This document shows, piece after piece, positions 7,691 to 32,566 of a stretch of 43,104 nt of DNA. The notes beneath the pieces were generated by a model. The model had not been told where the DNA came from. It saw only the letters and a program-made list of their open reading frames with translations, and searched no databases. The stretch is taken from positions 1 to 43,104 of IMG/VR virus record IMGVR_UViG_3300046794_000044; one strand, given 5' to 3'. The DNA is from a virus. The translations under genes and the position numbers were made by a program. Numbering within the stretch: position 1 is the stretch's first letter; each line of letters begins with the position of its first letter.

Positions 7691-7854
7691 TTGGAATCCT
7701 TGCTGATGAGGCGAGCGAACGCTGCGCCCAGTTGAGAACCGAGCACGCGCTCAGCGATGTACTTCGAGGAGGACGGCACACGCACAGTCCGGCCGTTCGG
7801 CTTGACGATGGTGTGCGATGTCACGTTGGTTTCGATGCGACGCTTCACGCTCAC
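7687..7854 (-). CDS. Small basic early protein (55 aa)
   Basis: GTG at 7854 overlaps the previous stop as GTGA, the usual coupling in this operon; a longer upstream frame overlaps the neighbour and is rejected. Reads VSVKRRIETNVTSHTIVKPN, then VRVPSSSKYIAERVLGSQLG. Basic start, helical end. Function unknown. Confidence 0.65.
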   Translation of the reverse strand: MSVKRRIETNVTSHTIVKPNGRTVRVPSSSKYIAERVLGSQLGAAFARLISKDSK

Positions 7855-8225
7855 AGTTCCACCCGCTCGGCAGGCCGATGGAAGAACTGCTCTTTGAACT
7901 CGCCCCACTTCGTAGCAGCAGGACCGTACAGCTTGCCGCTCAGTTGTCCGAACGAATCGGACTTCGCCACTGCGATGCAGTCTTGGCCGAGCTTCTGAGC
8001 CACGCCGTACGCAGCGTTGTCGAGCGCCATCTTGGACTCGTACCGCACAGCAGCCACGAGGGTTCGCTCGGTGCCTTGCGCATGGGTCACGTCACGCATC
8101 TCGCCATGCAGCAGCATGAAGCCAAGGCGGTTCAGGTAAGAGACAGTGCGAAGCACCGTGTTATCGCCGGTGCCATCAGCACGAGCGAGTCCAACGTTAA
8201 TCAGGAGGTTCACAGCAGGCTCCAT
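7851..8225 (-). CDS. Hypothetical early protein (124 aa)
   Basis: Two starts are possible. The ATG at 8225 has a poor ribosome site. A GTG four codons later, at 8213, sits six bases after GGAG and may be the real one. The protein is mixed alpha/beta with no membrane segment, cysteine cluster or catalytic motif. It contains VRYESKMALDNAAYGVAQKL and a polar C-terminal part (FKEQFFHRPAERVEL). Function unknown. Confidence 0.7.
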   Translation of the reverse strand: MEPAVNLLINVGLARADGTGDNTVLRTVSYLNRLGFMLLHGEMRDVTHAQGTERTLVAAVRYESKMALDNAAYGVAQKLGQDCIAVAKSDSFGQLSGKLYGPAATKWGEFKEQFFHRPAERVEL

Positions 8226-12511: not shown

Positions 12512-12931
12512 TGAAATAGGACAGATACCCGCACACCTGCGCTCCGGGTTCTGCGACGCCTAGCACCACGTTATCCCTCCTGATACCCTGTGAGCCGTGC
12601 GCCTATGCCACTGCGACGCGTCCACAGCCCCTCTGCGCCCCTGTTGCCCCTGTCCGGGTACATGCCCCGCCTCCAGTGTCCCCAGCCTGTCCCAGCCCCT
12701 GTGGCGCCCCTTGCTGCGTATGCGCTGTCACCTGCCGTGCGCAGGCAGAGACACAGAGGAGCATTCGCGTGCGTCGTGCGTGCGGCGTGTGCGTGCGCGT
12801 CAAGAGGGCTGCATGGGGGCGCGGGAGCGCGGGCGGGCGGCGTAAGGCCCCGCAGAAATCTGGATCATTTTCTGGCCGAGTGGCCGATGCGAGGGTGCCG
12901 GTGTTCGGTCCGGTGGGACAGCGAATGGCAG
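12512..12931. other. Non-coding GC-rich stretch between phage promoter and integrase promoter
   Basis: No gene with a ribosome site is visible on either strand. Around 12770-12845 there is alternating purine-pyrimidine sequence (GTGCGTGCGGCGTGTGCGTGCGCG) followed by G-rich runs. The orientation of the GGACAG hexamer flips within this stretch. A physical virion end or direct terminal repeat could well lie here, but nothing in the sequence proves it. Confidence 0.5.
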
Positions 12932-12960
12932 TTGACGGGGACAGTTATTTCTGGGACACT
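12932..12960 (+). promoter_or_regulatory. Probable integrase promoter
   Basis: Plus strand: TTGACG (12932-12937), 17-base spacer, GACACT (12955-12960). Spacer and -10 equal those of early promoters B and C. The -10 lies inside the first 18-bp direct repeat, so any protein binding the repeat would affect transcription of the integrase. Confidence 0.45.
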
Positions 12961-12970
12961 ACAGGGACAG
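12953..12970 (+). repeat. 18-bp direct repeat, copy 1
   Basis: GGGACACTACAGGGACAG, repeated exactly at 13116-13133. The two copies flank the attP core. Candidate arm-type site for integrase or a directionality factor. Confidence 0.65.
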
Positions 12971-13038
12971 TGAGCCTCCGGGACAGCGTGGTGGGTAGTC
13001 GGGATCGCCCGCCAGTGGCCGTTGAGGGCGCAAGAGGC

Positions 13039-13086
13039 GCCTTCACACGGCAGGGGTCACTGGTTCGATCCCAGTACCGCCCACCA
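13039..13086 (+). other. attP core: 3' half of tRNA-Val(CAC)
   Basis: These 48 bases fold as the 3' half of a tRNA: anticodon loop TTCACAC (anticodon CAC, Val), 3' anticodon stem GGCAG, variable loop GGGTC, T stem-loop ACTGG-TTCGATC-CCAGT, 3' acceptor strand ACCGCCC, discriminator A and CCA. The 5' half is missing: no D arm, and no proper acceptor partner. A tRNA 3' half beside an integrase is the classic attP, which rebuilds the host tRNA gene on integration. Identity with the host tRNA appears to begin at the 5' edge of the anticodon loop. Confidence 0.9.
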
Positions 13087-13115: not shown

Positions 13116-13133
13116 GGGACACTACAGGGACAG
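13116..13133 (+). repeat. 18-bp direct repeat, copy 2
   Basis: Exact copy of 12953-12970, 29 bases beyond the attP core and 28 bases before the integrase ATG. Together the copies bracket the core asymmetrically, as arm sites do. Confidence 0.65.
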
Positions 13134-13161: not shown

Positions 13162-14166
13162 ATGGGGACAATCTCTCAACGCCCTTCTGGCCGCTGGCAG
13201 GTGAAGATTCGCCGCGCTGGAGCCAAGCCACTCAGTGCCACCTTCGAGACGAAGGCAGACGCACAGAAGTGGGAGCGGGACCAAGAACGCGGTATCGACC
13301 GAGGACTGATCGGGACACTCGATGCGTCCCCGCTCCTCCGGGATGTTCTGGCCCGCTATCTCAAAGAAGTCTCTCCTCTGAAGAAAGGTGCATCCGTCGA
13401 GGCTTGGAGGCTGAATGCCCTCCAGAGGTCTTGGATCGCCCAGCAGCCGCTCGGGAAACTCACCAGTGCGATGGTAGCCAAGTACCGCGACGAGCGGCTC
13501 AGCGGGGCTGGGGACAAGCCTGTAAGTGGGTCAACCGTCAACCGGGAACTGAACTTGCTTCACCACGTCCTCGAAGTGGCGCGGAAGGACTGGGCCATCG
13601 GTACTGGCACCAATCCGGTGCATGATGTTCGCCGCCCGAAGCACAGCCCTGCTCGTGATCGTCGGCTGACGGATCAGGAGAAGGCGGTCCTTCTGGAAGC
13701 CTGTCGGCAGTCCCAGAAACCGTACGTCGCTCAGGTGTTCGAGCTTGCACTGGAGACTGGGATGCGACAAGGGGAGATCGTGAACCTCCGGGTGGAGGCG
13801 GTCGATCTGGAGGGATGTGCGGTCAGCCTCAAGGCGGGAGCCACGAAGACGGACGAAGCCCGGACGGTTCCTCTCTCCAGCCGAGCGGTGGCGATCCTGA
13901 AGGAAGCCATCGGTGGACGGAAGGAGGGCCGGGTGTGGCCGGGGCTGACCAGCGAAGCGATAAAGCGGGCCTTCATCCGGGCGAGGGACAGGGCCGGTCT
14001 GGAGGATGTGACCTTCCATGACTCCCGGCACCACGCCACTACCCGGTTCGTGGAACTGGGTCTGACGGACACCGAGGTCATGAGCATCACCGGGCACAAG
14101 ACCCAGTCTATGATGCGTCGGTACACCCACCTGCGGGCGAAGGACTTGGCGAAGAAGCTGGGCTGA
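13162..14166 (+). CDS. Tyrosine recombinase (phage integrase)
   Basis: 334-residue site-specific recombinase for integration at the tRNA-Val(CAC) gene. The N-terminus (1-50) looks like an arm-binding domain, then a core-binding SAM-like domain (55-150) and the catalytic domain. Catalytic residues are all visible: Arg202 (ETGMRQGE), Lys229 region, His286 and Arg289 (FHDSRHH), His312 (TGHKT) and Tyr321 (RRYTH). I start at ATG 13162 after GGGGA; the frame is open upstream but runs through attP and the repeats, so that part is not coding. It is the only plus-strand gene and overlaps the lysis-end gene by 59 bases tail to tail. Confidence 0.96.
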   Translation: MGTISQRPSGRWQVKIRRAGAKPLSATFETKADAQKWERDQERGIDRGLIGTLDASPLLRDVLARYLKEVSPLKKGASVEAWRLNALQRSWIAQQPLGKLTSAMVAKYRDERLSGAGDKPVSGSTVNRELNLLHHVLEVARKDWAIGTGTNPVHDVRRPKHSPARDRRLTDQEKAVLLEACRQSQKPYVAQVFELALETGMRQGEIVNLRVEAVDLEGCAVSLKAGATKTDEARTVPLSSRAVAILKEAIGGRKEGRVWPGLTSEAIKRAFIRARDRAGLEDVTFHDSRHHATTRFVELGLTDTEVMSITGHKTQSMMRRYTHLRAKDLAKKLG

Positions 14167-14467: not shown

Positions 14468-14709
14468 TTCCGTGGGGCGTAGAACGCCCGCAGCCCGGTC
14501 AACTGGTCGTTGCAGTTGTCGAGCGAGGTCTGATAGTCATGGATGGACTGCACCAGCCCGCCGAGCGTATGGTCAGCGGGAGGTGCTGGCTCCGGGCACG
14601 CCTGAAGCAGGGACGCCGGAGGCTGCATGGGGACGGTTGCCGTACAGGCCGTCAAACACGTCATCAGGCACAGCAGTGCTAGTCCAGTCCGGGTGTGCTT
14701 GAAGCGCAT
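14464..14709 (-). CDS. Outer-membrane spanin (Rz1-like lipoprotein)
   Basis: 81 residues with a lipoprotein signal: [18 protein letters not shown], then LTAC with Cys22 as the lipidated residue. The mature part starts with a Pro-rich section ([14 protein letters not shown]), typical of Rz1. The gene overlaps the Rz gene in another frame, the usual nested spanin layout. Together the pair fuses inner and outer membranes in the last step of lysis. Confidence 0.85.
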
Positions 14710-14935
14710 GTGTCACCTTCGTCTGGTTGGTTGAGGCACGAGCCTGCGTGACCGCCTGCGCCGTCTTGTAGGCGTCGAAGGCGGCTTGCGAGGCCACGAG
14801 GGAGGCGGTGAGCGTGGCAACCTGTTCGGAAGCCTTCTCAGCGCGTGTGTGTTCTACGTAGACCGCGGTCCCCAGCCCGCTCAGAACGAGCAGGCCAGCG
14901 AGGGCGATCAGCAGTCGGTCGATCAGCGGTGTCAT
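14573..14935 (-). CDS. Inner-membrane spanin (Rz-like)
   Basis: 120 residues. The ATG at 14935 overlaps the endolysin stop as ATGA; a longer upstream frame is inside the endolysin gene and is rejected. An N-terminal membrane segment ([20 protein letters not shown], about 8-27) is followed by a helical periplasmic part with [16 protein letters not shown]. The C-terminal end overlaps the start of Rz1. Membrane anchor plus periplasmic helix plus a nested lipoprotein identify an i-spanin. Confidence 0.85.
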
Positions 14936-15387
14936 TTGATGCACGTCTCGTATTCGGCCTGACGGCGGCGAACGAGGCCGGGGAGTTCCTGGCCCTTGGC
15001 GTACACCCACTTCAGCAGTTCCCGGCAGGCACCGAGGTGGTCGCCAGCGTTGAACTTGCGCAGCAGCGTGGACGAGGCGAGGTTGCCTCGGCCCACGTTG
15101 AAGGTGAAGTCGGTGAGTGCCGCGAGTTCGTTCGCGTTGATCGGACCTTGGGTGAGGTCGAGCACCGCGCCCATCGCCACGTTAGAGTCCGCGCTGAGTA
15201 GGTCGGTGCACTCCTTCGGGGAGTACACACGGCCCACGCGAACGTCCGCGCCGGTGTGCCCGGTGCAGGCTGTGGGGATGCCCACCGGGTCGCGGTAGGC
15301 TACGGGCTTGGTGCCTTCGAAGTGAAGCGTGAGGGCTGTGGCCGCTGCCGCCGCCAGCGCGATCACGCGAGCAGCGACGCGGGCCAT
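14932..15387 (-). CDS. Signal-anchor (SAR) endolysin, lysozyme family GH24
   Basis: 151 residues from ATG 15387, which overlaps the previous stop. The start is a weakly hydrophobic Ala-rich segment, [18 protein letters not shown], the look of a signal-anchor-release domain. The catalytic triad Glu24-x8-Asp33-x5-Thr39 is intact ([17 protein letters not shown]), as in T4 and P21 lysozymes. It cleaves the glycan backbone of peptidoglycan. With a SAR domain it can be exported by Sec and wait in the membrane until the holin depolarises it. Gly/Cys content near residues 41-45 (CTGHTG) may also matter for control. Confidence 0.9.
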
Positions 15388-15611
15388 TACGGCAATACGC
15401 CGTCGGTCACGATGCCGTCGCCACCGGCTGCGGTGTCGCAGGCGTTCGCGCAAGCGATGAAGAAGTCGCGGAGCTTCTTGGCCGAGGCGACCCCGCCCGA
15501 ACCCTTGGGTGCGGCGAGTTGAACGTAGCTGATCGCGTCAGCCGCGTCATAACGAAGGTCTGCCCCGCCGCTGACGCAGCGTTCGAGGGAAGGGAGTGCA
15601 TCTGCACGCAT
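15387..15611 (-). CDS. Hypothetical protein between terminase and endolysin (74 aa)
   Basis: ATG at 15611 follows AAGGAG. The stop overlaps the endolysin ATG. Sequence: RYDAADAISYVQLAAPKGSG, then KKLRDFFIACANACDTAAGG. No membrane segment, no known motif. T7-like phages often carry a small gene here, some affecting lysis or virion structure. Function unknown. Confidence 0.7.
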   Translation of the reverse strand: MRADALPSLERCVSGGADLRYDAADAISYVQLAAPKGSGGVASAKKLRDFFIACANACDTAAGGDGIVTDGVLP

Positions 15612-15622
15612 GGTGTTTCTCC

Positions 15623-17416
15623 TTAACGTCGGTACTTGTTGAAAGCGGAGCCACGGCTGGATGCCTGCGGTCCCCGGAGGTTTTGGTTACGGCCGAGCGG
15701 GTTCTTGATCCACTCAGCGAACTCCTTCTCACGAACGGCCTGAATGGCGCGCTCCTGATTCACACCCATCTGCTCGACCCAGTACCGGCAGGCACCCGCG
15801 AGGGCATCAAGTCGGTCGTCGTGCTGGAGGGCGTTCTTCTCACGCGTGATGTGCGCGATCTGGTGAAGGAGGGAATACGATGGTCGGCGTTCAGCCGGGT
15901 ATTGCTGGAGGGACTTCTCCTCGTCTCGCATGATCTCGTCGTTGAAGACGAGCGAGCCTCGGGCGATGATGGGTTCGAGAACGTCGATGATCCGAAGCTC
16001 CTTCTGCCCGCTCTCCCACGTCTCCTCAATTGCACAGCCACCACCCACGGTCTGCGGGTAGCCTGCGCGGAGGAGCGGAAGCCACGTATGGAGGTACGCC
16101 CCGTTGCCGAAGTTCTTCTCGACAAGGATGCGGTTCACCTTCCACCGGGCTGCGATGCCGGTCAGCTTCTCGAAGTTCGCACTGTCGAAGCCGCCCTTCA
16201 CGCCACCGACTTCCAAGGCGTACAACGTGCCGTTCAGGAAGCCGACGACGGCGTATCCAGTCTCGTCGCCGTTCTTGCCGCCGCCTGCCGGGTCAACGTA
16301 CATGACGATGCCTTGCAGGCCGGTGCGATCCGGTGACACGCTGGAGGGAATGCCGAGGGTGTACGTGGTGCCGTTGATCGAGTACTTGATGACCTCGTGA
16401 ACGAGGACACCGGGAGTGACGGTCAGCGGGTACGCGTCAGCCAAGCGCATGGACAGAATCTTCGCGAGGCGCAGAGGGAATCGTTCCGAGTCCGCGAGCT
16501 TCGTGTTCAGCATGTGCTGAAGCTGGAAGTACGCTGGGCCTTGGTCGTTCTCCTTCTTCGCGAGGAACTCCTCGTTGCCTGCTGGTAGTTCGAGGTCCAC
16601 CGGCTGGCCTTGGTCGCCCAAGATGCCGCCGCCGATGCCAAGGCTAGGGTCTGCCTTCAGCTTCCGCACGATCATCGGGGCGAGCATGTCGCCGTAGTTC
16701 TCCAACTGCTTCAGCGTCGGGTAACGACCAGTCCAGATGCGGACGGTGTAGCCACGACCGGGTAGCGTGTTGTAGATCGAGTTGATCGACTGCGGTGTGC
16801 CGAGGTAGATGATTCGCCCGGTGGAGCAGATAGAAGGGAAGTCACGAGTCAATTGAAGCAACGCCTGCCGTTGGTGCTCGGTCAGGGAGTTCTTCGCACT
16901 CTCAATGTCGTCCGCGATAAGTAGGTCGGCGCGCTTACCCTGCAAGTTGCCGGTGACGCCTACGCACGCCACGGATGGCGACTTATCAAGACCCTTGAGG
17001 GTGTGATGCACGTCGAATGCTTCGACCGATGTCCGGTCGCCTGCGTTGCGGTCAGGGCGTAAGCATTCCAGAATGTCCATCGTCATGATGACGCGGACGA
17101 CTAGGGTACTGATTTCGTTCGCTTGTGTTCCACCGGCTGAGATAATCAGGATACGGTGCTTCGGGTCGTGGATCAGACACCAGACTGCGAACAGTGCGCA
17201 GATGGTGGTCTTAGCTTGGCCCCGCTGAGCCTGCACCATGAGGTAGTGCGGGCCGAACTCCATGAACTCAGCGATGTCGGCTTGAACCTCCGAGAGGGAG
17301 AAGCCTAGCTCGATCATCCCGTCTTCGCAGAAGGGAATGAAGTGAGGGTAGGCACCCTGAAGGATTTCTAGCTGCGCGATGCGCTGTAATGCGGCCTCTA
17401 ATGACTCACGAGCCAA
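15623..17416 (-). CDS. Terminase large subunit
   Basis: 597-residue packaging motor and nuclease. Walker A is AQRGQAKT (Lys69) and Walker B is LLIADDIE; the C-terminal RNase H-like nuclease begins YVDPAGGGKNGDETGYAV with its metal-binding Asp. Length is near T7 gp19 (586). The start is TTG at 17416, overlapping the small-subunit stop by 11 bases; no ATG or GTG lies nearby in frame, and TTG gives the normal N-terminus length. In this group the enzyme cuts concatemers to give direct terminal repeats. Confidence 0.96.
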   Translation of the reverse strand: MARESLEAALQRIAQLEILQGAYPHFIPFCEDGMIELGFSLSEVQADIAEFMEFGPHYLMVQAQRGQAKTTICALFAVWCLIHDPKHRILIISAGGTQANEISTLVVRVIMTMDILECLRPDRNAGDRTSVEAFDVHHTLKGLDKSPSVACVGVTGNLQGKRADLLIADDIESAKNSLTEHQRQALLQLTRDFPSICSTGRIIYLGTPQSINSIYNTLPGRGYTVRIWTGRYPTLKQLENYGDMLAPMIVRKLKADPSLGIGGGILGDQGQPVDLELPAGNEEFLAKKENDQGPAYFQLQHMLNTKLADSERFPLRLAKILSMRLADAYPLTVTPGVLVHEVIKYSINGTTYTLGIPSSVSPDRTGLQGIVMYVDPAGGGKNGDETGYAVVGFLNGTLYALEVGGVKGGFDSANFEKLTGIAARWKVNRILVEKNFGNGAYLHTWLPLLRAGYPQTVGGGCAIEETWESGQKELRIIDVLEPIIARGSLVFNDEIMRDEEKSLQQYPAERRPSYSLLHQIAHITREKNALQHDDRLDALAGACRYWVEQMGVNQERAIQAVREKEFAEWIKNPLGRNQNLRGPQASSRGSAFNKYRR

Positions 17417-20068: not shown

Positions 20069-23000
20069 TTACGGGGTGACGCCGTTTACGAGCGCGGTCC
20101 CGAGGAAGGTGTTACCGAGGGGCACGGTGCGCAGGGTTGCCGCGACCGTCTTGTGGATGTCCGCCGTATCTGACCCCGAAATCTGACCACCGATCTTGCT
20201 GATGGCTCCGGCTGCGGTCTTCAGGTATCCCATCGAGGCGAACGGGCTGGTGCCGTTGGACTGCCCGCCGAACACCATGTTGGTGGCGTCCAGAGCGTCC
20301 GAGGCGATACCGGAGATGTTGGTCATCGAGGAGACACCCGAGGCCAGTTCGATGCCGCTGAACTTGTGGGCGAGGTACTTGTCCCGCTGCGCATCCGACA
20401 TCCCTGCCGTCGAGGCCATCGTCTTGGCGTAGTACAGGCCAGCCGCCCATGCCGCGTTCGAGATGCCGGTGACGACTGCGGTGCGGTCAGCGTGCGCCAT
20501 GTTGCGCGCCACTTGCTTCTCCGCGCCGACCATGCCCTGATTGCGGAACTGGGTGAAGAACTTGCCCATCGCCGTTTCGACTTGCCAGCGCGGCTGCTCG
20601 CCAATGAAGGCTCGCTGGAGCACCTGACCGGTGACGCGGTGAATTGCGCCGATCATGTCCTCCGCCGTACCGGGCGCGGCCTTGTCCCACAGGTGCCAGT
20701 TGATCTGGTCGCCCACTTGCCGGCCCGCGTCGTGCTCTGCCAGCATGGTCTGGATACCGCGCACGCGATCCGCATCGAGGCCCGTCTCCACCAGTCGTGC
20801 CGGTGTGAGGGTCTTGCTGCCGGTGGACACGATGGTGCCGTGTTCATCGAACTTGGTGCCTTGGATCGCCTTGACCAGTTCCTCCGTGATGGCCGGAACC
20901 GCAGCGCGGTGCGTCATCATCTGGATCGGGCGCGAGAGGGACATCCACGACAGGCTGGTGTTCAAGCCTTGGCGGATGTTCTTCCACATCGTCGGGTTCG
21001 TGAGCATCGAGCCGGTGTGCGGTGTGATGCCCGACGTGGACTCAGCCATGTGGATGCGGTGATCCATGCCGAGCGCCGAAGTCGCGCAGACCTTCAACTG
21101 CGCCATCAGCGCCGTGTCCTTGCCGAAGCTGTTCACGAATGCGCCGAGGAAGCCCTTCATGCCGACCGCGCCCACGAGCGCGCCCGCATCGCCCAGCCCG
21201 TTCAGGCCCACCTTACCCATGAGGGCGAGGGAGGTGGCGGACTGGAGAGCCTGCGCTGCTGCGTTCTCCGTGACGTGGTGCTCGTCCTTCAGGGACTTGT
21301 ACGCGAACTCCAGGTTGTCCAGCTCCTCGTTCGAGGCGCCGTGCTTGGTGAGCACGTCCTTGAACGCCTGCCAGTGCGTGTCGTCCTTGATGCCGCGCTT
21401 CGCCAGCGAGATCGCGCCCGCGTAGTGCGAGGTGTTCTGCTGCACCATGCGACCGTAGTCCGTGTCGAGATAGTCCAGCATCCGCTTGCCACCGACTTCC
21501 TTCAGCAGGTCGAACTCCGTGCGGCTCTTGTCCGACATCGTTGCGATCAAGTCCTTGCGGAAGTCCGAGATCAACTGCTTCGTCAGGCGCGTGGCCTTGC
21601 GACCGTTCAGCGCCCGTACGTCGTCCAGCATCTTCGCAGCGACGTTGGCGAAGTGGTCATCAGCACCGAGCACACGGCCACCCTGATCGCGCATGATCTG
21701 CGTGAAGTAGTCGTCCGTCCGGTCCTTCGCCATCTGCTCGACACGCTGCATGAGCGTGCGCTCCTCCACCGGGCCTGCCTTCGACATCTTGGCCCGCAGC
21801 GGATCGGTGAGCTTCTGCACGTACTGGTCGCGGAAGTTCTGACGCAGGCTGTTCCACTCCTCGGCCTTGGCCGGGTCCGTCAGCGCCTCCTTGTACAGCG
21901 TGCGGAGTGCCGCGTCATCGAAGCGGTACGGGACGTAGCCCTGCCAACCGGACTTGCCGATCTTCGTGGATGCGCCCTCGCCTGCTGCCGTGCCCTTCTC
22001 GGTGATGTCCTTGAACATGCCGTCCATCGCCGCCGCGAGCTTCTGGATCGCCGGGTGTGCCTGCGACTCATACTCCGTGCCGTTCAGGCGTGCGTTGCGG
22101 TGCTGGAGTCGTTCCTCCTGCACTTGCTTGCCGATGCGCTTCAGCGTCTCGTCGCCCATGCCAGCCTGCACCAGTGCCTTCTCCTTCGCGGTCATCAGTT
22201 CGGGAGAGAGTTGGTTCCACAGGTTCGCCATCGGCGTGCGCCAGTTCGAGGCCATTGCGACCTTGTCGATAGCTGCCGAGGTGCCGCCTGCGCGGGATGC
22301 GCCGGTGGCGTCTTCGATCATCATGTTCGAGACAGCGCGGACCATCGGGTTGTCGGACAGGCCGAGCTTCACGCCCACCGAGTCCAACAGGCCGAGCGCC
22401 CGACCGATGCCGGTCTTGCCACGCCAGTTCTGATACCACTGCTTTGCGCGGGTGCGCATCGCCTCCAGTTCCTTCGGCATGGGCTTCTGCGCCATCGTCG
22501 TAAGCTGCGGCTCGATGCTCTGCGCCAGCGGCCCGAGCGGGATGTCCTCGCGGTCGTGACCGGGTTCGAGGAACACGTCCCGTCCCGGCTGGACCGTGTG
22601 GGTCGTCATGCCGTCCTCCTTGCCGCGAATCGCGATCTTCTGCTTGATGTCGAGCTTGCGTTCGAGGATGGCGTCGTGGATGCCCATCGCACGCGTCAGG
22701 CCGTTCACTTCGTCAGGCTCCATGCCGAGGAGCGAGCGGATGATGTCCACCGCCTTGCCCAGCAGGTTCGTGCCCTTGCCGACTTCCGTGCGCTTCAGAA
22801 GCTGGAGGAAGTGGTCGTGGCCGCTGAACAGGCCCGCGCTGAACTCGTGCGCGTTCGTGAGGTAGTACCGGGTGTGGTGCTCCGCATGAACTGCCGCCTG
22901 CTCGTCGTAACCCGGCTTGCTCTCGGCCAGCTTGCCCTCCTTGTTCAACTGGCGCAGCGCGGCTTGGCGCAGCTTGTTGAACTGGAGCACGAGTTGACCA

Positions 23001-24973
23001 TGCACCGTGTCTGGGTGCGCGAGGCCGTACTCGATCTTGCCTGCCGTGAGGCTGTGCGTGATCTCGTGCAGCATCGTCTGGTCGTTCGTCATGCCGTTCG
23101 GCTTCTTGGCGAGCGGGTCGCCAGAGGTGTCCTCACCGATCATGATCGAGTGGCGTGCGATGGTGTAGTTCGAGCGGATCGGCTGACCGTGCTTGTCGAG
23201 CGGCTGGCCGTAGATGGCCGCAGGGTCGCGCACGAAGTTCAGCAGGTGCGCTGCCAACTTGGCGATGCCTTCGTTCGCGCTGTTCGTCAGCTTCTTCAGT
23301 TCCGTGACCGAGTCCGACACCCACGTCGCCTTCGCCACGCGGGAGTCATGCGCCCGCTCGCCGGTTCGCGTGGAACCCCACGTCTGACGCCACTCCTCCG
23401 TGACTGCCTGCTCGACGCCCGGAGCCACGGTGCGGCCTGCTTCGGTGTCTTCGTCCGCTGCGGCCTTGGCCTTCGCTTCTTCGTCGCCCGAGGCGTTCGC
23501 CTGCTCCGTTGCCTTGGCCTTCTCCTCGTCGGCCTTGGCACGCTCCTCGTCCGCCGCTGCTCGCTCGACTGCCGAGTCAACGTGGCCTTGATGCCCGCTG
23601 GCTTCGGTGCCCGTCTGAACGTGCTCCGTCGCCGCTGCGTGCGGGTCCACGGTGCCCGCGTTGTGGCCTTCCAGTCCCGGCGTCTCGATGTTGTTCTTCG
23701 CGGTCAGCGAGTCGATGACTTGGTTCGCCGTGTGCTCTGCGCCTGCTGCCGCGTGATCGACGCCGTCCGGCTTCACGCCGGGGTCTTTCTCGCTCAGCTT
23801 GGACTTCGTGTGGACGAGGCCACCGATCAGGCCGAATGCTGCGCCTGCCGTTGCCTGCGATACCACGTCCTTCCAGCCGAAGTGCTGGTTGTCCATGTCG
23901 GCCATGATGCCGCCGAGGGCCACGTTCGTTGTCGCGCCTTCTGCAACCGAGCCTGCCGTGCGGGCCAGCATACTTGCCTCTGCGCCGGTCTTCATGACGC
24001 TCAGCGCGCTGCCGAGGCCCATCGTTGCGACGAGGGTCACAGGGTCGGCCATGCCGGACATCAGGTTCACGAGGCCGTCGCCCGCGCCGATCAGGCCGTG
24101 CGTGTTCTCGTACCGCTGTTGGAAATCGACGTGCTGGTTCGCCGCGTCGAGGCGCGACTCCAGATTCGACTGGCTGCTCGCGCCGAGGACGTAGTTCCGC
24201 ATCTCCTCGTTCGCCCAAATCTGCGGGTGCTGTTGCGAGAAGTTCTTCTTGTCGTCGTCCGTGAGCTTGAAGTTCGGATCGGCCTTGTCCTCGAAGAAGT
24301 GATCCACCATGCGCCCGGTGATCGTGTTCCACTCCAGACCCTGCTGGAGCGTGCCGAGCATCGAGGCGTGCTGCGTCTCCTGCGCCACCTCCCGCGCCGA
24401 CGTATCGGCTGCTTGGGTGTACAGCGAGGTGTTCAGGTCCGGGCGGCTCATGGCCGTGCCGTTCGCTGCGCCCGCGTTGTATCGGAGCACGTCCTGCGCG
24501 TTCGATTCGAGGGCGTTCGCCGCTTCGAGCTTCGTCTGCGTGTGCGGGGTCTTGAAGTTGATGCCGCCTTGGTCAGCCGGTGCGACGCCGCCGAGGATCG
24601 CGGGCGCGTAGCCCTGCGTCTCGGTGTTGTTCCACTTCGACTTGTCCCAGCCGCCGTTGTATGCGCTCAGCGCGTCCGGGAGGTTCCCGAAGTGCGCGAG
24701 GTTCTGCTGCATGACCGTCTTCTGGATCAGGAGCGAGTCCTGCCAGTTCGTCGGGTCGAGGTCACGCCCGAGTTGCTTGTTCAGCGACGCCAGTGTCTTC
24801 GGCATCACCTGTGCGAAGCCGACAGCACCCGCCGGGGAAACGGCGTGGGCGTTGTTGCGGGACTCTTGCATGATCTGCCTGCCGGACGTGCCAACAGGGA
24901 TGTTCAGGTCGCGGTCGTTGTTTTCGAGGTCCGCGATCTGGTCTTCAGTAAAAGGGTTTTCTTGCAGGTTCAA
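20069..24973 (-). CDS. Internal virion protein with lytic transglycosylase domain (T7 gp16-like)
   Basis: 1634 residues, a little longer than T7 gp16 (1318). Start is TTG, seven bases after AGGAG. Residues about 10-120 form a transglycosylase: IMQESRNNAHAVSPAGAVGF with catalytic Glu37, then AYNGGWDKSK. A charged Ala/Glu/Lys coil lies at about 470-525. A second motif, MLHEITHSL (His636-Glu637-x2-His640), is a zinc-peptidase signature not present in T7 gp16 as I know it. The rest is helical and probably builds the core and the ejected channel. In infection this protein is ejected, opens the peptidoglycan and helps the DNA through the envelope. Confidence 0.93.
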   Translation of the reverse strand: MNLQENPFTEDQIADLENNDRDLNIPVGTSGRQIMQESRNNAHAVSPAGAVGFAQVMPKTLASLNKQLGRDLDPTNWQDSLLIQKTVMQQNLAHFGNLPDALSAYNGGWDKSKWNNTETQGYAPAILGGVAPADQGGINFKTPHTQTKLEAANALESNAQDVLRYNAGAANGTAMSRPDLNTSLYTQAADTSAREVAQETQHASMLGTLQQGLEWNTITGRMVDHFFEDKADPNFKLTDDDKKNFSQQHPQIWANEEMRNYVLGASSQSNLESRLDAANQHVDFQQRYENTHGLIGAGDGLVNLMSGMADPVTLVATMGLGSALSVMKTGAEASMLARTAGSVAEGATTNVALGGIMADMDNQHFGWKDVVSQATAGAAFGLIGGLVHTKSKLSEKDPGVKPDGVDHAAAGAEHTANQVIDSLTAKNNIETPGLEGHNAGTVDPHAAATEHVQTGTEASGHQGHVDSAVERAAADEERAKADEEKAKATEQANASGDEEAKAKAAADEDTEAGRTVAPGVEQAVTEEWRQTWGSTRTGERAHDSRVAKATWVSDSVTELKKLTNSANEGIAKLAAHLLNFVRDPAAIYGQPLDKHGQPIRSNYTIARHSIMIGEDTSGDPLAKKPNGMTNDQTMLHEITHSLTAGKIEYGLAHPDTVHGQLVLQFNKLRQAALRQLNKEGKLAESKPGYDEQAAVHAEHHTRYYLTNAHEFSAGLFSGHDHFLQLLKRTEVGKGTNLLGKAVDIIRSLLGMEPDEVNGLTRAMGIHDAILERKLDIKQKIAIRGKEDGMTTHTVQPGRDVFLEPGHDREDIPLGPLAQSIEPQLTTMAQKPMPKELEAMRTRAKQWYQNWRGKTGIGRALGLLDSVGVKLGLSDNPMVRAVSNMMIEDATGASRAGGTSAAIDKVAMASNWRTPMANLWNQLSPELMTAKEKALVQAGMGDETLKRIGKQVQEERLQHRNARLNGTEYESQAHPAIQKLAAAMDGMFKDITEKGTAAGEGASTKIGKSGWQGYVPYRFDDAALRTLYKEALTDPAKAEEWNSLRQNFRDQYVQKLTDPLRAKMSKAGPVEERTLMQRVEQMAKDRTDDYFTQIMRDQGGRVLGADDHFANVAAKMLDDVRALNGRKATRLTKQLISDFRKDLIATMSDKSRTEFDLLKEVGGKRMLDYLDTDYGRMVQQNTSHYAGAISLAKRGIKDDTHWQAFKDVLTKHGASNEELDNLEFAYKSLKDEHHVTENAAAQALQSATSLALMGKVGLNGLGDAGALVGAVGMKGFLGAFVNSFGKDTALMAQLKVCATSALGMDHRIHMAESTSGITPHTGSMLTNPTMWKNIRQGLNTSLSWMSLSRPIQMMTHRAAVPAITEELVKAIQGTKFDEHGTIVSTGSKTLTPARLVETGLDADRVRGIQTMLAEHDAGRQVGDQINWHLWDKAAPGTAEDMIGAIHRVTGQVLQRAFIGEQPRWQVETAMGKFFTQFRNQGMVGAEKQVARNMAHADRTAVVTGISNAAWAAGLYYAKTMASTAGMSDAQRDKYLAHKFSGIELASGVSSMTNISGIASDALDATNMVFGGQSNGTSPFASMGYLKTAAGAISKIGGQISGSDTADIHKTVAATLRTVPLGNTFLGTALVNGVTP

Positions 24974-25041
24974 TGTAGTTCTCCTAAAGGTTGAACACGG
25001 ATGGCACAGCGCCCTGTTGCCAAGGTGCTGTACCGCCGTGC

Positions 25042-27348
25042 TTACAGACCGCCGCCGATTGCCGATGCTGGCACGTCGAGCGACTTGTCGTGATAAGTGG
25101 GTTGAGCCGCGAGGATTCGCTGACCCAGTTCTGTGCCGTCCACAACGATGCGGAGGGGCGTACCGTCCTTCTTGTTCAGGACGAGGTTCATCTTGCCGCC
25201 GCCGAGGTACTGGCCGTACGACACCGAGTAGTCCTTCGCTTTGAAGTTCTCCTTGTCCGCGTTCGGCAGGCTCGTCACCGCAGCCGTGATCTTCTCGTCA
25301 ATCAGCTTGCGGAACGTGGTCTGGTACAGGCCGTCCTGCTGGCCGATGTTGGCGCTGCCGCCCTTGCTGACGTACGCGGAGAATGACTCCTCCTTGCCCC
25401 AGCGACCGCGGTCTTCGGGGACGTACGTTCCGGGCACGAGGTCAGCGTCGCCCATGATCTGCGTGAACGCGGCCTTCGCTGCGGCATCGCTGCTCATGTT
25501 GAACGCCTTCTTGTTCTTCGCCATGATCGGTGCCATCTCGCTCGCCATGTTCTCCTTGGCTTCGTCCGAGAGGTCAGCGCCGGACAGCGAGCCACCCGCC
25601 CAAAACTTCCACCACGACGGGTCTTGCGACTTCACGTACGAGACTGCGTCCTTCTTGTCCTGCGGCGATGCCACCGCACCCTTGCCCCGAGACAACTGGA
25701 GCTTCACGTCCGTGTAGGCCGCTGCGTTCGTGGTGTCAACGTGCGAGTCCAGGATTCCGAGGACCGCTTCCGCTTCGTCACCGAAGTACGACTTCACCGC
25801 GCCGATACCACCCGGCCCGCTGCGCAACTGCTGAGCGATCTGGAGCACGCGCTGCTGGTCCGGCGTTGCCGGTGCAGTGCCGTCGAGGATGCCCGCCGAG
25901 CCGTGGACGATGTCCTCCTTCAGCGAGGGGACGATGAACGCCGAGTCGTGCGCGTTCGCGCTGGCGTGCGCCCAAAAGGATTGCTGCTCCTCGGGGCTGG
26001 CGTCCTGCCGCATTGCGCTGGAGTAGATCGAGTTCAACTGCGCGAGGCGCGGGGCTTCTTCGACCGGCTTGCCCTTGATGATGTCCGGGCGGTTCGATGT
26101 CCAAGCCTGCGTCACGAAGGTCGCGGCCTCGTTGTAGTTCGCTTGCTTGTTCTGCACCTTCGCCGCGAGCGTCTGCTGCCGCTGGTTGTTCGCGTCCATC
26201 TGCTTCAGGACTTCGGCCTGCTGCTCTTGCGTGAACACCGGAGTGGCGTCACCGTTCAGCAGCTTGTTCTGCTGGTTCACGGCTTCCATCGCGTTGATCG
26301 CTGCCGCGTGGCCCGACGGCGTCGAGTCGAAGGGACTCTGCCCTCGCGTCATGTTGAACACCAGCCCCTCGCGGGAGTTCATGATGTCCATCGTCTTCGG
26401 GTTCTTCGCTGCCGCGTTCGCTTCGAGGAGCGGAATCTTGGTGCTCAGTTCCTCCTTGACGAGCGGGTCGAGCGCCTGATACTCGGGCATCTCCTGCATG
26501 GCGCGGACTGCGTGCCAGTTACCCGCCTGTGCGTTCGACACGATCTGATCGTGCAGCGACTTCTGGTACGCGTCGGTCGTCATGTTGTCCGGCTTGAGCA
26601 CCTGATTGCGATAGTTCGCATACGCCGCTGCCGTCGTCTCGGGTGACAGGTCGTTGTCCGCCGCGAGCGTCGCCTGCATGGCCTTGGCCGAGGACACGCC
26701 CATGTTGTCGAAGCCCTGCTTGTTCTGCTCCTGAGTGAACTGCACGTACTGCGTCATGTGCGTCTTCAGCATGTCCCCGTACATCTCGGGAATCTTGCCT
26801 TGGATCATGGCGTCCGTGTACGGGTCGCCGGTGCTCTGCATACTCGCGGTCTTGTCCACGAGGTACTGGCGCACCTGATCCGGCGACTTCTCCCGAAGCT
26901 GCGGCATGGCCTGCATGAAGTCCGTCTGCGCCTGATTCATCGCAGCGTTCACGTTGTACATCTGTGCGCCCTGCACCGTGGCGTCCGGGCCGTAGATGGC
27001 CGAGTACCACGGCTGCTCGGCTTGGATGTCCGCCAGTGCCTTGCCCTGTGCAGCCTGCGCCATACCCTGCGCGTACTGCTCCTTCTTCTGCCGGTCGATG
27101 TACGGCTGGATCATGCCCTGCGTCAGCTTGTCGAGTGCTTCGAGGCTGACGCCCGAGCCGAAGACGCCTTGCGCCATCTCCGCTTTTGAGAACGCGTTGA
27201 GGTCTGTACCGCCGTTGGCGACGCCGCCACTGGACTGCCCAGTGACGCCGCTGCTCCCTTGGAAGCTGCCGGAGCCGCCGACGCCCAGCGTGCTTTGCTG
27301 CGTTACTACGTCACCGCCTGAGTTGAGGCTGAAGCTCACGCCTGCCAT
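25042..27348 (-). CDS. Internal virion protein (T7 gp15-like)
   Basis: 768 residues, close to T7 gp15 (747), ATG after AAGGAG. The N-terminal 60 residues are Gly/Ser-rich (GGSGSFQGSSGVTGQSSGG), the rest mainly helical and Gln/Ala-rich. Lies between the gp14-like and gp16-like genes, the conserved order of the internal core proteins that are ejected to form a channel through the cell envelope. Assigned by order, size and composition. Confidence 0.85.
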   Translation of the reverse strand: MAGVSFSLNSGGDVVTQQSTLGVGGSGSFQGSSGVTGQSSGGVANGGTDLNAFSKAEMAQGVFGSGVSLEALDKLTQGMIQPYIDRQKKEQYAQGMAQAAQGKALADIQAEQPWYSAIYGPDATVQGAQMYNVNAAMNQAQTDFMQAMPQLREKSPDQVRQYLVDKTASMQSTGDPYTDAMIQGKIPEMYGDMLKTHMTQYVQFTQEQNKQGFDNMGVSSAKAMQATLAADNDLSPETTAAAYANYRNQVLKPDNMTTDAYQKSLHDQIVSNAQAGNWHAVRAMQEMPEYQALDPLVKEELSTKIPLLEANAAAKNPKTMDIMNSREGLVFNMTRGQSPFDSTPSGHAAAINAMEAVNQQNKLLNGDATPVFTQEQQAEVLKQMDANNQRQQTLAAKVQNKQANYNEAATFVTQAWTSNRPDIIKGKPVEEAPRLAQLNSIYSSAMRQDASPEEQQSFWAHASANAHDSAFIVPSLKEDIVHGSAGILDGTAPATPDQQRVLQIAQQLRSGPGGIGAVKSYFGDEAEAVLGILDSHVDTTNAAAYTDVKLQLSRGKGAVASPQDKKDAVSYVKSQDPSWWKFWAGGSLSGADLSDEAKENMASEMAPIMAKNKKAFNMSSDAAAKAAFTQIMGDADLVPGTYVPEDRGRWGKEESFSAYVSKGGSANIGQQDGLYQTTFRKLIDEKITAAVTSLPNADKENFKAKDYSVSYGQYLGGGKMNLVLNKKDGTPLRIVVDGTELGQRILAAQPTYHDKSLDVPASAIGGGL

Positions 27349-27357
27349 AGAGTCTCC

Positions 27358-28281
27358 TTATGAGAGTGAGAAGTTGAAGTTGCTGGACGAGCCGTTCTGA
27401 CCGCCACCGCCGCCACTTGAGCCGCTGGAGTTGTCAAGCGTGAAGCCGTACGAGTTACCGCCGCCCGCGTTCGTCTGCGACCAGCTATCGTTCGTGGACT
27501 CGACGCCGTTCAGGATCGTCTGTGAGGAGTAGCCCTGCGTGCTGCCAGTCGAGCCGTTGTAGTCGTCGCCCGAGCCGCCGAGCGTGGTGCCCCGGTTGTT
27601 GCCTTGGCTGAACTGCTGGAAGCCACCGCCGCCAGCCGCGCCCATGAGCAGCATCTGCGCTGTCGTAAGCTCGGGTGCCTTCATCGGTGCGATTGTGGTC
27701 TGCGGGATGGCCGTCTGGTAGTTCATGTTCGCGACGGTCGTGCCGTAGTCCTGCGACATGATGAGGTTCGAGCGCAAGCCAGCGGAGGCCATCATCGCGT
27801 CGAAGGACATGGTGTTGACCTTCTCCTGCGCGTTGTTCGCCTGCCGTGCCTGCGTGCTCCGCATCGTGCTGCGCATGATGTCTGCGGACCCGCCACCGAC
27901 GCCCTTGGCCGCTGCGTCAGCGCGCAGCGCGCCGAGGACTGCCGAGCTTTGAATCTGCTGCTCGACGGTGCCCTTGACGGTCGCGTCCAGCATTCGGATC
28001 ACGTTCGTCTCGTGCGTGTTGTACTGCGAACCAATCGCCGCGCTCGTCTGTTGGTTCTTGATCGAGCGTTGCGTGTTGGACAGTGCCGCCTGCGCGGCGG
28101 CGAAGTCATTGCCTGCCGCCCGCAGTGCGTTCGTGTTGTCCGCTTGGTCCTTGGCAAGCAGGTTAGACGCGTCGGTCTGCGCCATCTGGACCGTGTACTG
28201 CGCGGCGTTCTGCGCATTCATGATCGTGCCGCGATAGACCCCTTCGACTGCACCCACTGCCATGTTAAGGAATGAGCACAT
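27358..28281 (-). CDS. Internal virion protein (T7 gp14-like)
   Basis: 307 residues from ATG 28281, which overlaps the tail tubular B stop as TAATG. An upstream in-frame ATG exists but lies inside the tubular gene. The N-terminal half (residues about 20-150) is helical and Ala/Gln/Asn-rich, around VQMAQTDASNLLAKDQADNT. The last 90 residues are Gly/Ser/Asn-rich and low complexity (GGSGDDYNGSTGSTQGYSSQ). In T7, gp14 is ejected first and sits in the outer membrane. Assigned by order and composition. Confidence 0.8.
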   Translation of the reverse strand: MCSFLNMAVGAVEGVYRGTIMNAQNAAQYTVQMAQTDASNLLAKDQADNTNALRAAGNDFAAAQAALSNTQRSIKNQQTSAAIGSQYNTHETNVIRMLDATVKGTVEQQIQSSAVLGALRADAAAKGVGGGSADIMRSTMRSTQARQANNAQEKVNTMSFDAMMASAGLRSNLIMSQDYGTTVANMNYQTAIPQTTIAPMKAPELTTAQMLLMGAAGGGGFQQFSQGNNRGTTLGGSGDDYNGSTGSTQGYSSQTILNGVESTNDSWSQTNAGGGNSYGFTLDNSSGSSGGGGGQNGSSSNFNFSLS

Positions 28282-30872
28282 TAGACTCGCCTCCCGGAAG
28301 TAAAGAATTGACCGACCCACTCCACCGCTGAGATCGTCATCGGGAGAACGGGCTTGCTTTGGAACGTGACCTTGTGTTCCGTGTTGGCCCGACCCACAGG
28401 CACCGGGAATACCGATGTCGTGATAGGGATGCGGCCCACGAGGTTGTTCGAGTGACCGACTAGGCGTGCGTTGTACGCCGCCGTCTTGACGTTGGTCCCG
28501 TTGTAATCCGTCAGGAGTACGTCACAGCCACTCGTATCCGTGAAGCTCACGGTGTACTTGTTGACGACGAGCCGCCCGTTCACGATGGCCTTGTCGTGGT
28601 CGTCCCGGAAGTACGGCGCGGTCAGCGTGACGTAGCTCGGGTAGTCGAAGCCGACCACCATGTTGGCCCCCGCGATGGCCGGGTACTGCGCCACGAACGT
28701 GCCCCACCCAGTCATCTTCGCGTTGATGAGGAACTCGGCCTTGGTGCTGTCCGGCGTCACCCTCGCGTCCGCCCACATCTTCGTGGTCTGCCAGTTACCC
28801 CACTGTCCATTGATCGGGCCTGTGGACGTGATCGGGGTTTGGAGGTCAATGAAAGGTCGTGACCGGTCGGTCGTGTCCATGTTGAACTCCGCGACCACCG
28901 CGAGGATGTTCGATCCACCCGCCGCTGCATCCGGCATGAACCAGAACGTCAGCGGGCGCTGGCGGTACTGCGACATCGCTGCGATGTGCCCGCATGAGGC
29001 CGAGCATTCCCAGCGGCTCCACGAGTCGAACTCGCGGGACTGCGTGCCTGCCGCGTCGAGGTAGCTGTAGACGTAGAAGCCGTTGTCCACGCCGTCCGTG
29101 CGTACGAACAGTGTCGAGGGTGTATTCAGCGCCTCCAGTTCGATGGGTCGGCCCTTGATGTACCGGGCAAGCTGCTTGCTGATCTGGTACGTCTCGGGCA
29201 CGTCTTGGAACAGGCCAAGCTGGAACTGGCTGATGATGCCGCTGTATGACTGCGTGCCACCCGCCACTGCGGCGGTGCCGTAGAAGACGAAGTTGCCCGA
29301 GGTCACAGGCTGAGCCGTGCTCGCGTCCCGCTCGTGTGCCACCGCGCCCACCGACACGTCCTTCGGAGTGGCGAGTGAGTTGCCGGGGATGACGTACTGG
29401 TTCCGCAGGCCGAACATGAACAGGTTCTTGTTGTACGTGACGCACTTGGAGATCGTGTCGTCCTGCGCGCCGAGGGCGTACACCTGAATCGGATCGTCGT
29501 CCTGCACCGAGAACATCGTCTGCCGGAACCAATTGAAGTAGTCCCCGCTGCGCGACATGAAGATCGTGCCGTCCGCGACTATGACGAGGCGGTCCTGAAA
29601 CATCGTCATGAGACTGATCTTCTTGCCGAAGAAGTACGGGATCGCTGCCGTCTGGTCCTTGTCACCGCATACGCTCGGGGTGAACTGGGGGCATGTGAAG
29701 GTGCCGCCATTGTTCAGCACGCTCGGCGTAGAGCCAATGCAGAAGCTGTTGCCGTCCGGCGTGATGCCCGCGACCGCGAACACCTGTCCCGGAGTGATGA
29801 CTTGAGCCGGACCTTCCACCCACTTGCCGGTGGACCAGTAGCTGCCATCGTCGGTCTTGAACACCATGTAGTACGGGTCCACTTGGTTGTTCGCCTTCAC
29901 CTGCACCACCTTACCGTTACCGTGGATTGGCGACAGCTTGGCTACGTCATCGAGCGTGTTGTGGATGCCCCGGAACAGGGTGCCGTCACCGCCGTCGTCA
30001 ACGGACAGACTGGTGATGTGATCCATGAAGATCGTGCCGCCCATCGTTCCGAGGTTGGTGTAGCCCGCCGCATTAAGCTGGCTCGCAAGCTGTGATGCGA
30101 TGTTCTGTGGCGTGATCGACGCGGCTGCGTCACCGATCCACTTGTTCACCGCTGAGTTGTACGCGTTCACGCGGTCGTTCACCTGCTTCTGATAGTCCGA
30201 CGCGCCCGAGACGATGTCCGCCGTGCTCAGCAGGTTCGGGTAACTCGAAGCCATCGTGGTGTACGAGGCCGAGAAGACATGCCCGTCATCCGAGCGCGTG
30301 ATCTTGATCGTGTACGTGCGGCTGTACGCACCACCTCGACACCATGCGACGCCCTGCGTTGCGGTCTGCGCATAGCGGTCGTTGATGCTGTAGCCCGGAC
30401 CCAGCGTGTTCGCCGCGATGGCGAGGTAATCGCCCACCGTCGCGAGCGCGCTCACGCCACCTGTGATCCACGGCGCGAGGCCAGTGGCCGCTGCCGGGTT
30501 GGCGGTGCCGCCGTCCATGTACCAGACACCGAGGAAGCGGGCGTCCGTCTTGCAGTAGCAGAGGAACGGTGGGAGTTCGTACGGGCCAGCAGCGGCTGCT
30601 GTGCGGTACAGGAGGCTGTACTCCTTGCCCCGGTTGAAGAAGGTGTACTCGCGGTACAGGCGGATGTCGTTCTGCATGTTCGCAGTCAGCGCCGCCCCAG
30701 CCGCTGCCGTGACCATCGCCTTCAGGCTCGAACCCGGACGGCGTGCGAGGCCGACCACCGGGTCCGAGATCATGTTGACTTGCTCCCACATCTGACCGGG
30801 ATGCCGATCCTGCGGGACTTGTTCCGATACGCCGCGAGTCACGCTGGCGTAGGAGCCGACTACTTTACTCAT
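28281..30872 (-). CDS. Tail tubular protein B (nozzle)
   Basis: 863 residues (T7 gp12 has 794), ATG after AAGGAG. Starts VVGSYASVTRGVSEQVPQDR and is rich in beta strands, Trp and aromatic residues, as expected for the nozzle beta-propeller. RQTMFSVQDDDPIQVYALGA is a typical stretch. Lies just after tubular A, the fixed order in this family. It closes the tail tube and carries the fibres. Confidence 0.92.
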   Translation of the reverse strand: MSKVVGSYASVTRGVSEQVPQDRHPGQMWEQVNMISDPVVGLARRPGSSLKAMVTAAAGAALTANMQNDIRLYREYTFFNRGKEYSLLYRTAAAAGPYELPPFLCYCKTDARFLGVWYMDGGTANPAAATGLAPWITGGVSALATVGDYLAIAANTLGPGYSINDRYAQTATQGVAWCRGGAYSRTYTIKITRSDDGHVFSASYTTMASSYPNLLSTADIVSGASDYQKQVNDRVNAYNSAVNKWIGDAAASITPQNIASQLASQLNAAGYTNLGTMGGTIFMDHITSLSVDDGGDGTLFRGIHNTLDDVAKLSPIHGNGKVVQVKANNQVDPYYMVFKTDDGSYWSTGKWVEGPAQVITPGQVFAVAGITPDGNSFCIGSTPSVLNNGGTFTCPQFTPSVCGDKDQTAAIPYFFGKKISLMTMFQDRLVIVADGTIFMSRSGDYFNWFRQTMFSVQDDDPIQVYALGAQDDTISKCVTYNKNLFMFGLRNQYVIPGNSLATPKDVSVGAVAHERDASTAQPVTSGNFVFYGTAAVAGGTQSYSGIISQFQLGLFQDVPETYQISKQLARYIKGRPIELEALNTPSTLFVRTDGVDNGFYVYSYLDAAGTQSREFDSWSRWECSASCGHIAAMSQYRQRPLTFWFMPDAAAGGSNILAVVAEFNMDTTDRSRPFIDLQTPITSTGPINGQWGNWQTTKMWADARVTPDSTKAEFLINAKMTGWGTFVAQYPAIAGANMVVGFDYPSYVTLTAPYFRDDHDKAIVNGRLVVNKYTVSFTDTSGCDVLLTDYNGTNVKTAAYNARLVGHSNNLVGRIPITTSVFPVPVGRANTEHKVTFQSKPVLPMTISAVEWVGQFFTSGRRV

Positions 30873-31555: not shown

Positions 31556-32566
31556 TTATGCGGACTTGAGCACGCCTGCGAAGGCGGGGTTGTTCGGAGC
31601 AACGCCGAAGCTCAGGTGAGCGTCGATGAACCACAGCTTCGTGATCGGGTCGTAGAACACGTCCGACGTGAGCGGGATCGTCTCGCCTGCGAGCAGGGCA
31701 CGCGGGCTGAACACAGCCGCGACCGTCTTCGAGAAGTCACCGTCGTACGCGTTCGAGTTGCCCGCGTTCGAGAGGTAGTGACCCGACACGTTCGTGGTCG
31801 GCAGGTTGTTCGAGAAGTAGATCGGCACGCCAGCAGCCGAGATCGCCTTCGTCTTGATGGTCGTGCCATCCGACGTGACCAGTTCGCGGTCGATGAGGCG
31901 GTTGTTCTGGAGCAGCGTGTAGAAGTACTTCGGCTTCGTCACGATGACCAGACCGTCGTCATGCGGGTCCACGTCCTTGTCCGCCATCGCGGCGAACAGG
32001 TCCAGCAGCTTCGCTTCCAGCTTCACCGGATCGGTGTCGTCGCCGACTGCCGAGAACGCTGCCGAGGTGCCGGGTTGCCAGCCAGCCGGGTACTGGCTCA
32101 TGTCGGTGATCTGCGCGGCCTTGATCGCTTGGATGAAGAACGACTGGTCGAAGAACTTCGCGATCTCGATGCCGTGCTCCGTGCCGATTGCGGCGCGAGC
32201 GTCGTACGAGCTTTGGAAGTCGTCCAGCAGCGGCACCGTTGCGCGGGCATTCACCAGCGTGTCGATGGTCAGCTTGACCTTCTGCGTGCCGTTCACGGTC
32301 GCGTCGGGAGCCGTACCCGGCGTCACCTTCGAGAGCGTGGACTTGCCCACTTGGTAATTCGAGATCGTGCTCGTGCCCTTGACCGAACGGACCGGGACGA
32401 AGTTGCGGACGATGGAGCGACGCGCCAGCGTGTGTTCCACGACGCCGCCGTACTCCTCGATGACCAGCTTCAGCGGATCGGCTGCGCCGCCCGTACCGAC
32501 TTGCGTGTTGTTGCCGGTTTGCAGTTGCGCCATCGGGCGCGAGATGTTGACAACGGAAATACCCAT
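31556..32566 (-). CDS. Major capsid protein
   Basis: 336 residues (T7 gp10A has 345), ATG after AGGAG. Contains the early segment PLKLVIEEYGGVVEHTLARR typical of the T7 capsid E-loop region, IVRNFVPVRSVKGTSTISNY, and the C-terminal LWFIDAHLSFGVAPNNPAFAGVL. It has its own phage promoter just upstream and a strong terminator just downstream, as expected for the most abundant virion protein. No frameshift site for a gp10B-like minor form is evident. Confidence 0.95.
   Translation of the reverse strand: MGISVVNISRPMAQLQTGNNTQVGTGGAADPLKLVIEEYGGVVEHTLARRSIVRNFVPVRSVKGTSTISNYQVGKSTLSKVTPGTAPDATVNGTQKVKLTIDTLVNARATVPLLDDFQSSYDARAAIGTEHGIEIAKFFDQSFFIQAIKAAQITDMSQYPAGWQPGTSAAFSAVGDDTDPVKLEAKLLDLFAAMADKDVDPHDDGLVIVTKPKYFYTLLQNNRLIDRELVTSDGTTIKTKAISAAGVPIYFSNNLPTTNVSGHYLSNAGNSNAYDGDFSKTVAAVFSPRALLAGETIPLTSDVFYDPITKLWFIDAHLSFGVAPNNPAFAGVLKSA

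Follow-up and report, generated by a model that had tools for sequence, protein, structure and literature searches.

A tRNA-Val(CAC) segment as the probable attachment site core of a T7-like phage, with comparison to related prophages and satellite-like elements in Burkholderiaceae

Introduction

T7-like phages are often assumed to be strictly lytic. The viral record IMGVR_UViG_3300046794_000044 from IMG/VR, whose full 43,104 nucleotides are called the window here, carries part of a valine tRNA gene next to a tyrosine integrase gene. This raises the question of whether the tRNA segment is the site (attP) at which the phage integrates into the chromosome of its host. A first-pass annotation of the letters alone had proposed that the phage is T7-like, that it integrates into the host tRNA-Val(CAC) gene, and that it rebuilds that gene. 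The segment, its neighborhood, and its counterparts in related genomes were explored to answer this question.

The phage genome

The features that identify the phage are as follows.

1-21 and 43084-43104, no strand assigned: terminal direct repeat of 21 bp
14573-15453, minus strand: spanin and lysozyme genes adjoining the integrase (phrog_5151, PF00959)
15623-17416, minus strand: large terminase subunit, homologue of the annotated Paku TerL (80% over the part compared; 85% in the genomes G404 and G375)
20069-28320, minus strand: internal virion (ejection) proteins, three large ORFs at 20069-24973, 25042-27348 (phrog_3883), and 27358-28320, with homologues in phages and in the elements described below
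31556-32566, minus strand: major head protein (phrog_267)
33498-35057, minus strand: portal, or head-tail connector (phrog_449, PF12236)
36223-38676, minus strand: T7-type single-subunit RNA polymerase (phrog_414, E 3.6e-288; 75% to Paku over 817 aa)

Since the record begins and ends with a direct repeat, it is probably a complete circularised genome. The T7-type portal, head, scaffold, tail, ejection, and terminase genes form one collinear block. The structural genes and the RNA polymerase gene are on the minus strand, with the polymerase gene in the middle, and the integrase gene lies on the plus strand. Among named phages, Burkholderia phage Paku (MZ326863) is the nearest relative, with an RNA polymerase 75% identical and an integrase 52% identical. 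The polymerase, the collinear block, and an intact integrase adjoining the lysis cassette place the phage in the AMP1/Paku group of the Autographiviridae, and the T7-like character given to it in the annotation is borne out by the phrog_414 polymerase, the virion genes, and the kinship with Paku. One early ORF (7851-8225, minus strand) has a sub-threshold match to the S-adenosylmethionine lyase family.

The tRNA segment and the integrase

Four features make up the probable attachment region.

12915-12985, plus strand: putative arm sites on the outer side, GGGACA at 12915, 12938, 12953, 12964, and 12980, the densest GGGACA cluster on the strand
13039-13086, plus strand: probable attP core, nt 28-75 of tRNA-Val(CAC) including CCA, 48/48 against the host tRNA-Val(CAC); the same phase bounds the prophages of G124 and G008
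13116-13132, plus strand: putative arm sites on the integrase side, GGGACA at 13116 and 13127, an 11-bp pair that recurs in relatives
13162-14166, plus strand: tyrosine integrase of 334 aa with an ATG start (PF00589 5e-26, phrog_1), grouping with tRNA-Val(CAC) integrases

The sequence at 13039-13086 is GCCTTCACACGGCAGGGGTCACTGGTTCGATCCCAGTACCGCCCACCA. It opens with the final three bases of the anticodon stem's 5' strand and runs on through the anticodon loop with CAC, the opposite strand of that stem, the variable loop, the T arm, and the 3' acceptor strand to CCA. This is approximately the last two-thirds of a valine tRNA gene. The fold described earlier, from the anticodon loop to CCA, is thus correct, and the segment is slightly longer than had been listed, because it takes in the 5' strand of the anticodon stem from the third base onward. 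The 5' part of the tRNA is absent, as had been stated; no tRNA similarity was found in the window upstream of the counterpart of nt 28. ARAGORN called no tRNA in the window and Rfam gave no match for the fragment at E up to 1, so that neither a full tRNA nor another RNA family was found at this position.

The core is identical in 48 of 48 positions to the 3' part of a bacterial tRNA gene, as in attachment sites that target tRNA genes. Full tRNA-Val(CAC) genes identical over these 48 nt are found in Burkholderia sp. Bp8963, in G375 and G404, and at the loci L004, L006, and L010. Bacterial tRNA-Val(CAC) genes with the matching 3' end that the annotation had asked for therefore exist. The match is not a chance one, because three further lineages (G124, G008, and L056-L059) have a tRNA segment in the same 48-nt phase.

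The integrase ORF begins 75 nt downstream of the core. The gap had been given as 76 bases, and this value should be replaced; the intact tyrosine integrase reported beside the fragment is present. In a tree of 32 integrases, it groups with those of the tRNA-Val(CAC) phages (support 100/99), as sister to Paku and L060. The core is flanked on both sides by GGGACA repeats that look like integrase arm sites. The five outer copies are all in direct orientation, and a further copy is located at 13165. With this copy included, there are 8 in 378 bp, as compared with at most 2 in windows taken elsewhere on that strand. The integrase-side repeats form an exact 18-nt repeat with 12953-12970. A pair spaced by 11 bp is also present on the integrase side in G124, L040, and L017, in the form GAGACA in G124 and L040. 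The clustered GRGACA repeats that flank the core are conserved in position among relatives.

Related prophages at tRNA-Val(CAC)

The relatives of the phage can indicate how such a site is used. The Burkholderiaceae genome G124 contains a complete T7-like prophage of 41.3 kb between an intact tRNA-Val(CAC) gene and an exact 48-nt repeat. The intact gene, at attL, ends 71 nt before the integrase match. An exact copy of tRNA nt 28-75, at attR, is found 41,321 bp away, beyond the early region. Four congeners of G124 (L135, L137, L143, and L145) have an empty site, in which the tRNA gene is joined directly to the DNA found beyond the attR of G124. A second prophage, G008, comes from a sequenced isolate (IMG 2808606867). 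It has the full gene set in the order of the window cut at attP, and its integrase is 66% identical. At its attR end, phage DNA is followed by the exact 48 nt and then by host DNA, which resembles Burkholderia and shares 80% identity with the sequence downstream of tRNA-Val(CAC) in Burkholderia sp. Bp8963. The record of G008 ends at the integrase start codon, so that its attachment evidence is the attR end. The bounding of a prophage by an intact tRNA gene and a 3'-part repeat is thus seen in relatives, at both ends in G124 and at attR in G008. Prophages beside tRNA-Val(CAC) with their genes in the order expected from cutting at attP, which the annotation had proposed to look for, were found in these two relatives.

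Other relatives agree with this arrangement. The metagenomic phages L056-L059 have a core in the same phase, 85% identical to the reference tRNA, located 40 nt before an integrase of 65% identity. In Candidatus Paraburkholderia calva (L040), an intact tRNA-Val(CAC) gene is followed by degraded remnants of an integrase and of lysis genes. A close relative in isolate 2808606905 (L014/L055) is on a contig that begins at the integrase, with the attachment side outside the record. Close T7-like prophages were found in 3 of 398 Burkholderiaceae species genomes. No lysogen of the window phage itself was found among the genomes searched, and the prophage evidence is that of its relatives.

Several other matches were considered and set aside. 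L002, L003, and L007 carry a 46-mer of the core, but their integrases are only 28-42% identical and no other window protein is matched; these are other elements. A comparable tRNA-Val fragment of 47 nt is present in Labrenzia phage vB_LagS-V1. In the 6 kb around it, a lysozyme-type endolysin was the only homologue seen of the T7-like genes of the window, and this phage therefore shows only that the tRNA-Val site is popular. The genus of G124 shows repeated insertion at tRNA-Val(CAC). Extra copies of the 3' part, with related integrases, lie 5.5 to 32 kb away in G097, G258, and G161 (L149, L150 with L151, L152).

Proposed integration and alternative explanations

It is very probable, judging from the sequence comparisons, that the phage is a temperate T7-like member of the AMP1/Paku group whose functional attP has the 48-mer as its core; its host is probably a member of the Burkholderiaceae. 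The neighboring integrase would recombine this core with its exact 48-nt counterpart in the tRNA-Val(CAC) gene of the host, probably while bound to the GGGACA repeats on either side as arm sites. The exchange would likely take place in the anticodon region. Upon integration, the 5' part of the host gene and the 3' part from the phage would form an intact tRNA gene, attL, beside the integrase, and the 48-nt remnant of the tRNA would be left at the far end as attR. The shared core, the attL and attR structure, the gene order cut at attP, and the empty sites are established by comparison with relatives. From these, we infer that the window phage itself integrates in the same way and that its integrase binds the GGGACA sites. 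The rebuilding of the host gene, as first proposed, is likewise supported by attL and attR of the relatives and by the empty sites in the congeners of G124.

Two observations count against this explanation: a lysogen of the window phage was not found, and neither a repressor nor an excisionase could be recognised in those early genes that were tested. The lack of a recognised repressor could be expected if the tRNA fragment and the integrase work, but integration is only a transient or rare event in an essentially lytic life. Such integration has been demonstrated for T7-like cyanophages, which integrate without stable lysogens (PMC8776855), and therefore integration need not mean classical lysogeny. 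In addition, integration of AMP1 could not be detected (PMC8917201). However, complete collinear prophages of the relatives are fixed in sequenced chromosomes, and their presence in three of the species genomes surveyed speaks against a purely passing event. A transient role is thus considered unlikely, at roughly one chance in several, and it is the most serious competitor of a functional attP in a temperate phage.

The fragment could also be a passive scar of captured host tRNA DNA with no attachment function. Fragments of tRNA genes do occur in phages, and ARAGORN calls no tRNA at the site. This is very improbable, as four lineages retain the complete core in one and the same phase, and the core adjoins the integrase, has repeat arms on both sides, and marks the ends of real prophages; for the relatives, the idea is contradicted. 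Even less credible is the expression of the fragment as a functional phage tRNA or as a tRNA-derived regulatory RNA. The T arm, variable loop, and CCA are kept, yet the missing 5' half and the negative Rfam and ARAGORN results leave almost no room for it. A functional attP core thus remains the preferred reading.

Different tRNA targets on a conserved backbone

Val-CAC, Arg-CCG, and Arg-TCT tRNAs all serve as targets among the closely related T7-like genomes, in both orientations. Paku and L060 carry the 3' half of tRNA-Arg(CCG), inverted relative to the integrase. In Paku, this segment is annotated as tRNA-Ser (L012:195-259, Paku 42469-42533) and reads as an inverted tRNA-Arg(CCG) 3' half. 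It is probably the attP of Paku. Two further T7-like prophages, G404:C1:2375000-2418700 and G375:C1:2559000-2604400, were considered as tRNA-Val cases, and their junctions placed them at tRNA-Arg(TCT). Their TerL is 85% identical to that of the window and their integrase is a different one. Since closely related genomes have different targets and integrases, it appears that the integration module is swapped while the T7-like backbone is conserved.

Satellite-like elements

While the attachment site was being followed into relatives, a group of small integrated elements emerged that had not been predicted beforehand.

L008:1025-13084, on an isolate contig (G404:C1:1224074-1236133): element with 12,008 bp between two copies of the tRNA-Val(CAC) 3' part
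L170:4028-16187: element of 12,106 bp at tRNA-Arg(TCT)
L169:2548-14828: element of 12,117 bp, apparently in a protein gene
L016:8727-20200: element in Burkholderia sp. Bp8963
L205:5168-18056: element with two integrases
L206:6020-17531: element with two integrases
L208:5676-19354: element with one integrase detected

Besides a serine recombinase and a DUF4145 protein, the element at tRNA-Val(CAC) encodes two T7-type internal virion proteins and two tandem integrases, which are 45% and 43% identical to that of the window. The DUF4145 protein (L008:1383-2138) has a weak match to the PD-T7-4 anti-phage family. The genome G404, in which this element is found, also holds one of the T7-like prophages, so that the two reside together. 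L205, L206, and L208 were obtained by searching the 398 genomes with the shared uncharacterised protein of the elements alone. All three have the order recombinase, uncharacterised protein, ejection protein, and one or two integrases, with flanking repeats 11.4 to 13.6 kb apart. An eighth match, L207, has the recombinase and the uncharacterised protein only. Common to the seven elements, which measure 11-14 kb and all come from Burkholderiaceae, are a serine recombinase, the conserved uncharacterised protein, one or more T7-type ejection proteins, and either one or two tyrosine integrases from the same family as that of the phage. Each is integrated and has an integrase of its own but an incomplete set of virion and packaging genes; the RNA polymerase, terminase, portal, and head or capsid genes of the window were not found in any of the seven.

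It is possible, though this is put forward tentatively, that these elements are satellites that travel in T7-like particles with ejection proteins of their own. They would form an apparently undescribed family, of which one member shares the tRNA-Val(CAC) site of the phages. The main alternative is that they are decayed T7-like prophages. This is made less likely by a gene order that recurs with a non-phage protein in common, by the similar size of the elements, and by the open frames of their ejection proteins, and the satellite reading is preferred. In the open-licence literature, no published satellites of T7-like phages that match the elements were found, which is weak evidence of novelty. 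If confirmed, the elements would be parasites of T7-like phages that bring their own DNA-ejection proteins.

The phages and the elements also share a non-coding sequence.

12811-12870, plus strand: conserved non-coding element of about 60 bp, common to AMP1/Paku-group phages and four satellite-like elements

It has a counterpart in 4 of the 7 elements. A pattern made for it gave 11 sites in 10 of the 398 genomes and none in the reversed control. At L187-L191, the conserved sequence is present and other element or phage genes are found only as fragments; in L187, it adjoins a fragment 94% identical to the DUF4145 protein of L008. The Paku record opens inside the conserved sequence, and the true ends of Paku are unmapped (PMC9022590). 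The sequence is absent from JG068, in which a 216-bp repeat is annotated at the ends. It is possibly a genome end or a packaging signal.

Comparison with known systems

Paku resembles the window phage in being T7-like and in having, next to its lysis cassette, an integrase that adjoins the 3' half of a tRNA. It differs in the identity and orientation of the fragment, an inverted tRNA-Arg(CCG) half annotated as tRNA-Ser. The genome paper of Paku does not discuss the fragment as an attachment site (PMC9022590). AMP1 is also T7-related and has an integrase beside an incomplete tRNA gene, and ten AMP1-related prophages flanked by repeated tRNA genes have been reported in Burkholderia, Ralstonia, Pandoraea, and Rhizobium (PMC8917201). 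Unlike in the window, the fragment in AMP1, which was compared by its published description only, matches tRNA-Arg/Ser (PMC8917201). Besides integration that could not be detected, AMP1 has a cold-sensitive phenotype that is independent of the integrase (PMC8917201). The main text on the ten prophages does not mention tRNA-Val (PMC8917201), and the use of tRNA-Val(CAC) may already be among them.

The T7-like cyanophages P-SSP7 and S-TIP37 likewise have an integrase and an attP that matches a host tRNA. Experiments demonstrated that they integrate into tRNA-Leu in a transient manner that depends on the integrase and attP (PMC8776855). They differ from the window phage in the tRNA used, in an attP located downstream of the integrase, and in forming no stable lysogens (PMC8776855). 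LUZ100, Pasto, and HTVC019P are T7-like phages with temperate features and, like the window phage, a tyrosine integrase; integration has been reported for Pasto and HTVC019P (PMC10134795). In LUZ100, the integrase is upstream of the RNA polymerase and a MarR-like regulator is present; no such regulator was recognised in the window.

The first-pass annotation had named AMP1-type phages and some cyanophages as integrase-bearing exceptions among T7-like phages, and it overstated the novelty of the present case. The principle has been published for AMP1-type phages, cyanophages, and others (PMC8917201, PMC8776855, PMC10134795), and the novelty is therefore modest. What is added for this phage group is evidence from attL, attR, and empty sites. 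This is relevant when T7-like phages are chosen as obligately lytic. The window phage is a further case of the known AMP1-type principle, and the apparently undescribed family of satellite-like elements, one of which shares the tRNA-Val(CAC) site, is more unusual.
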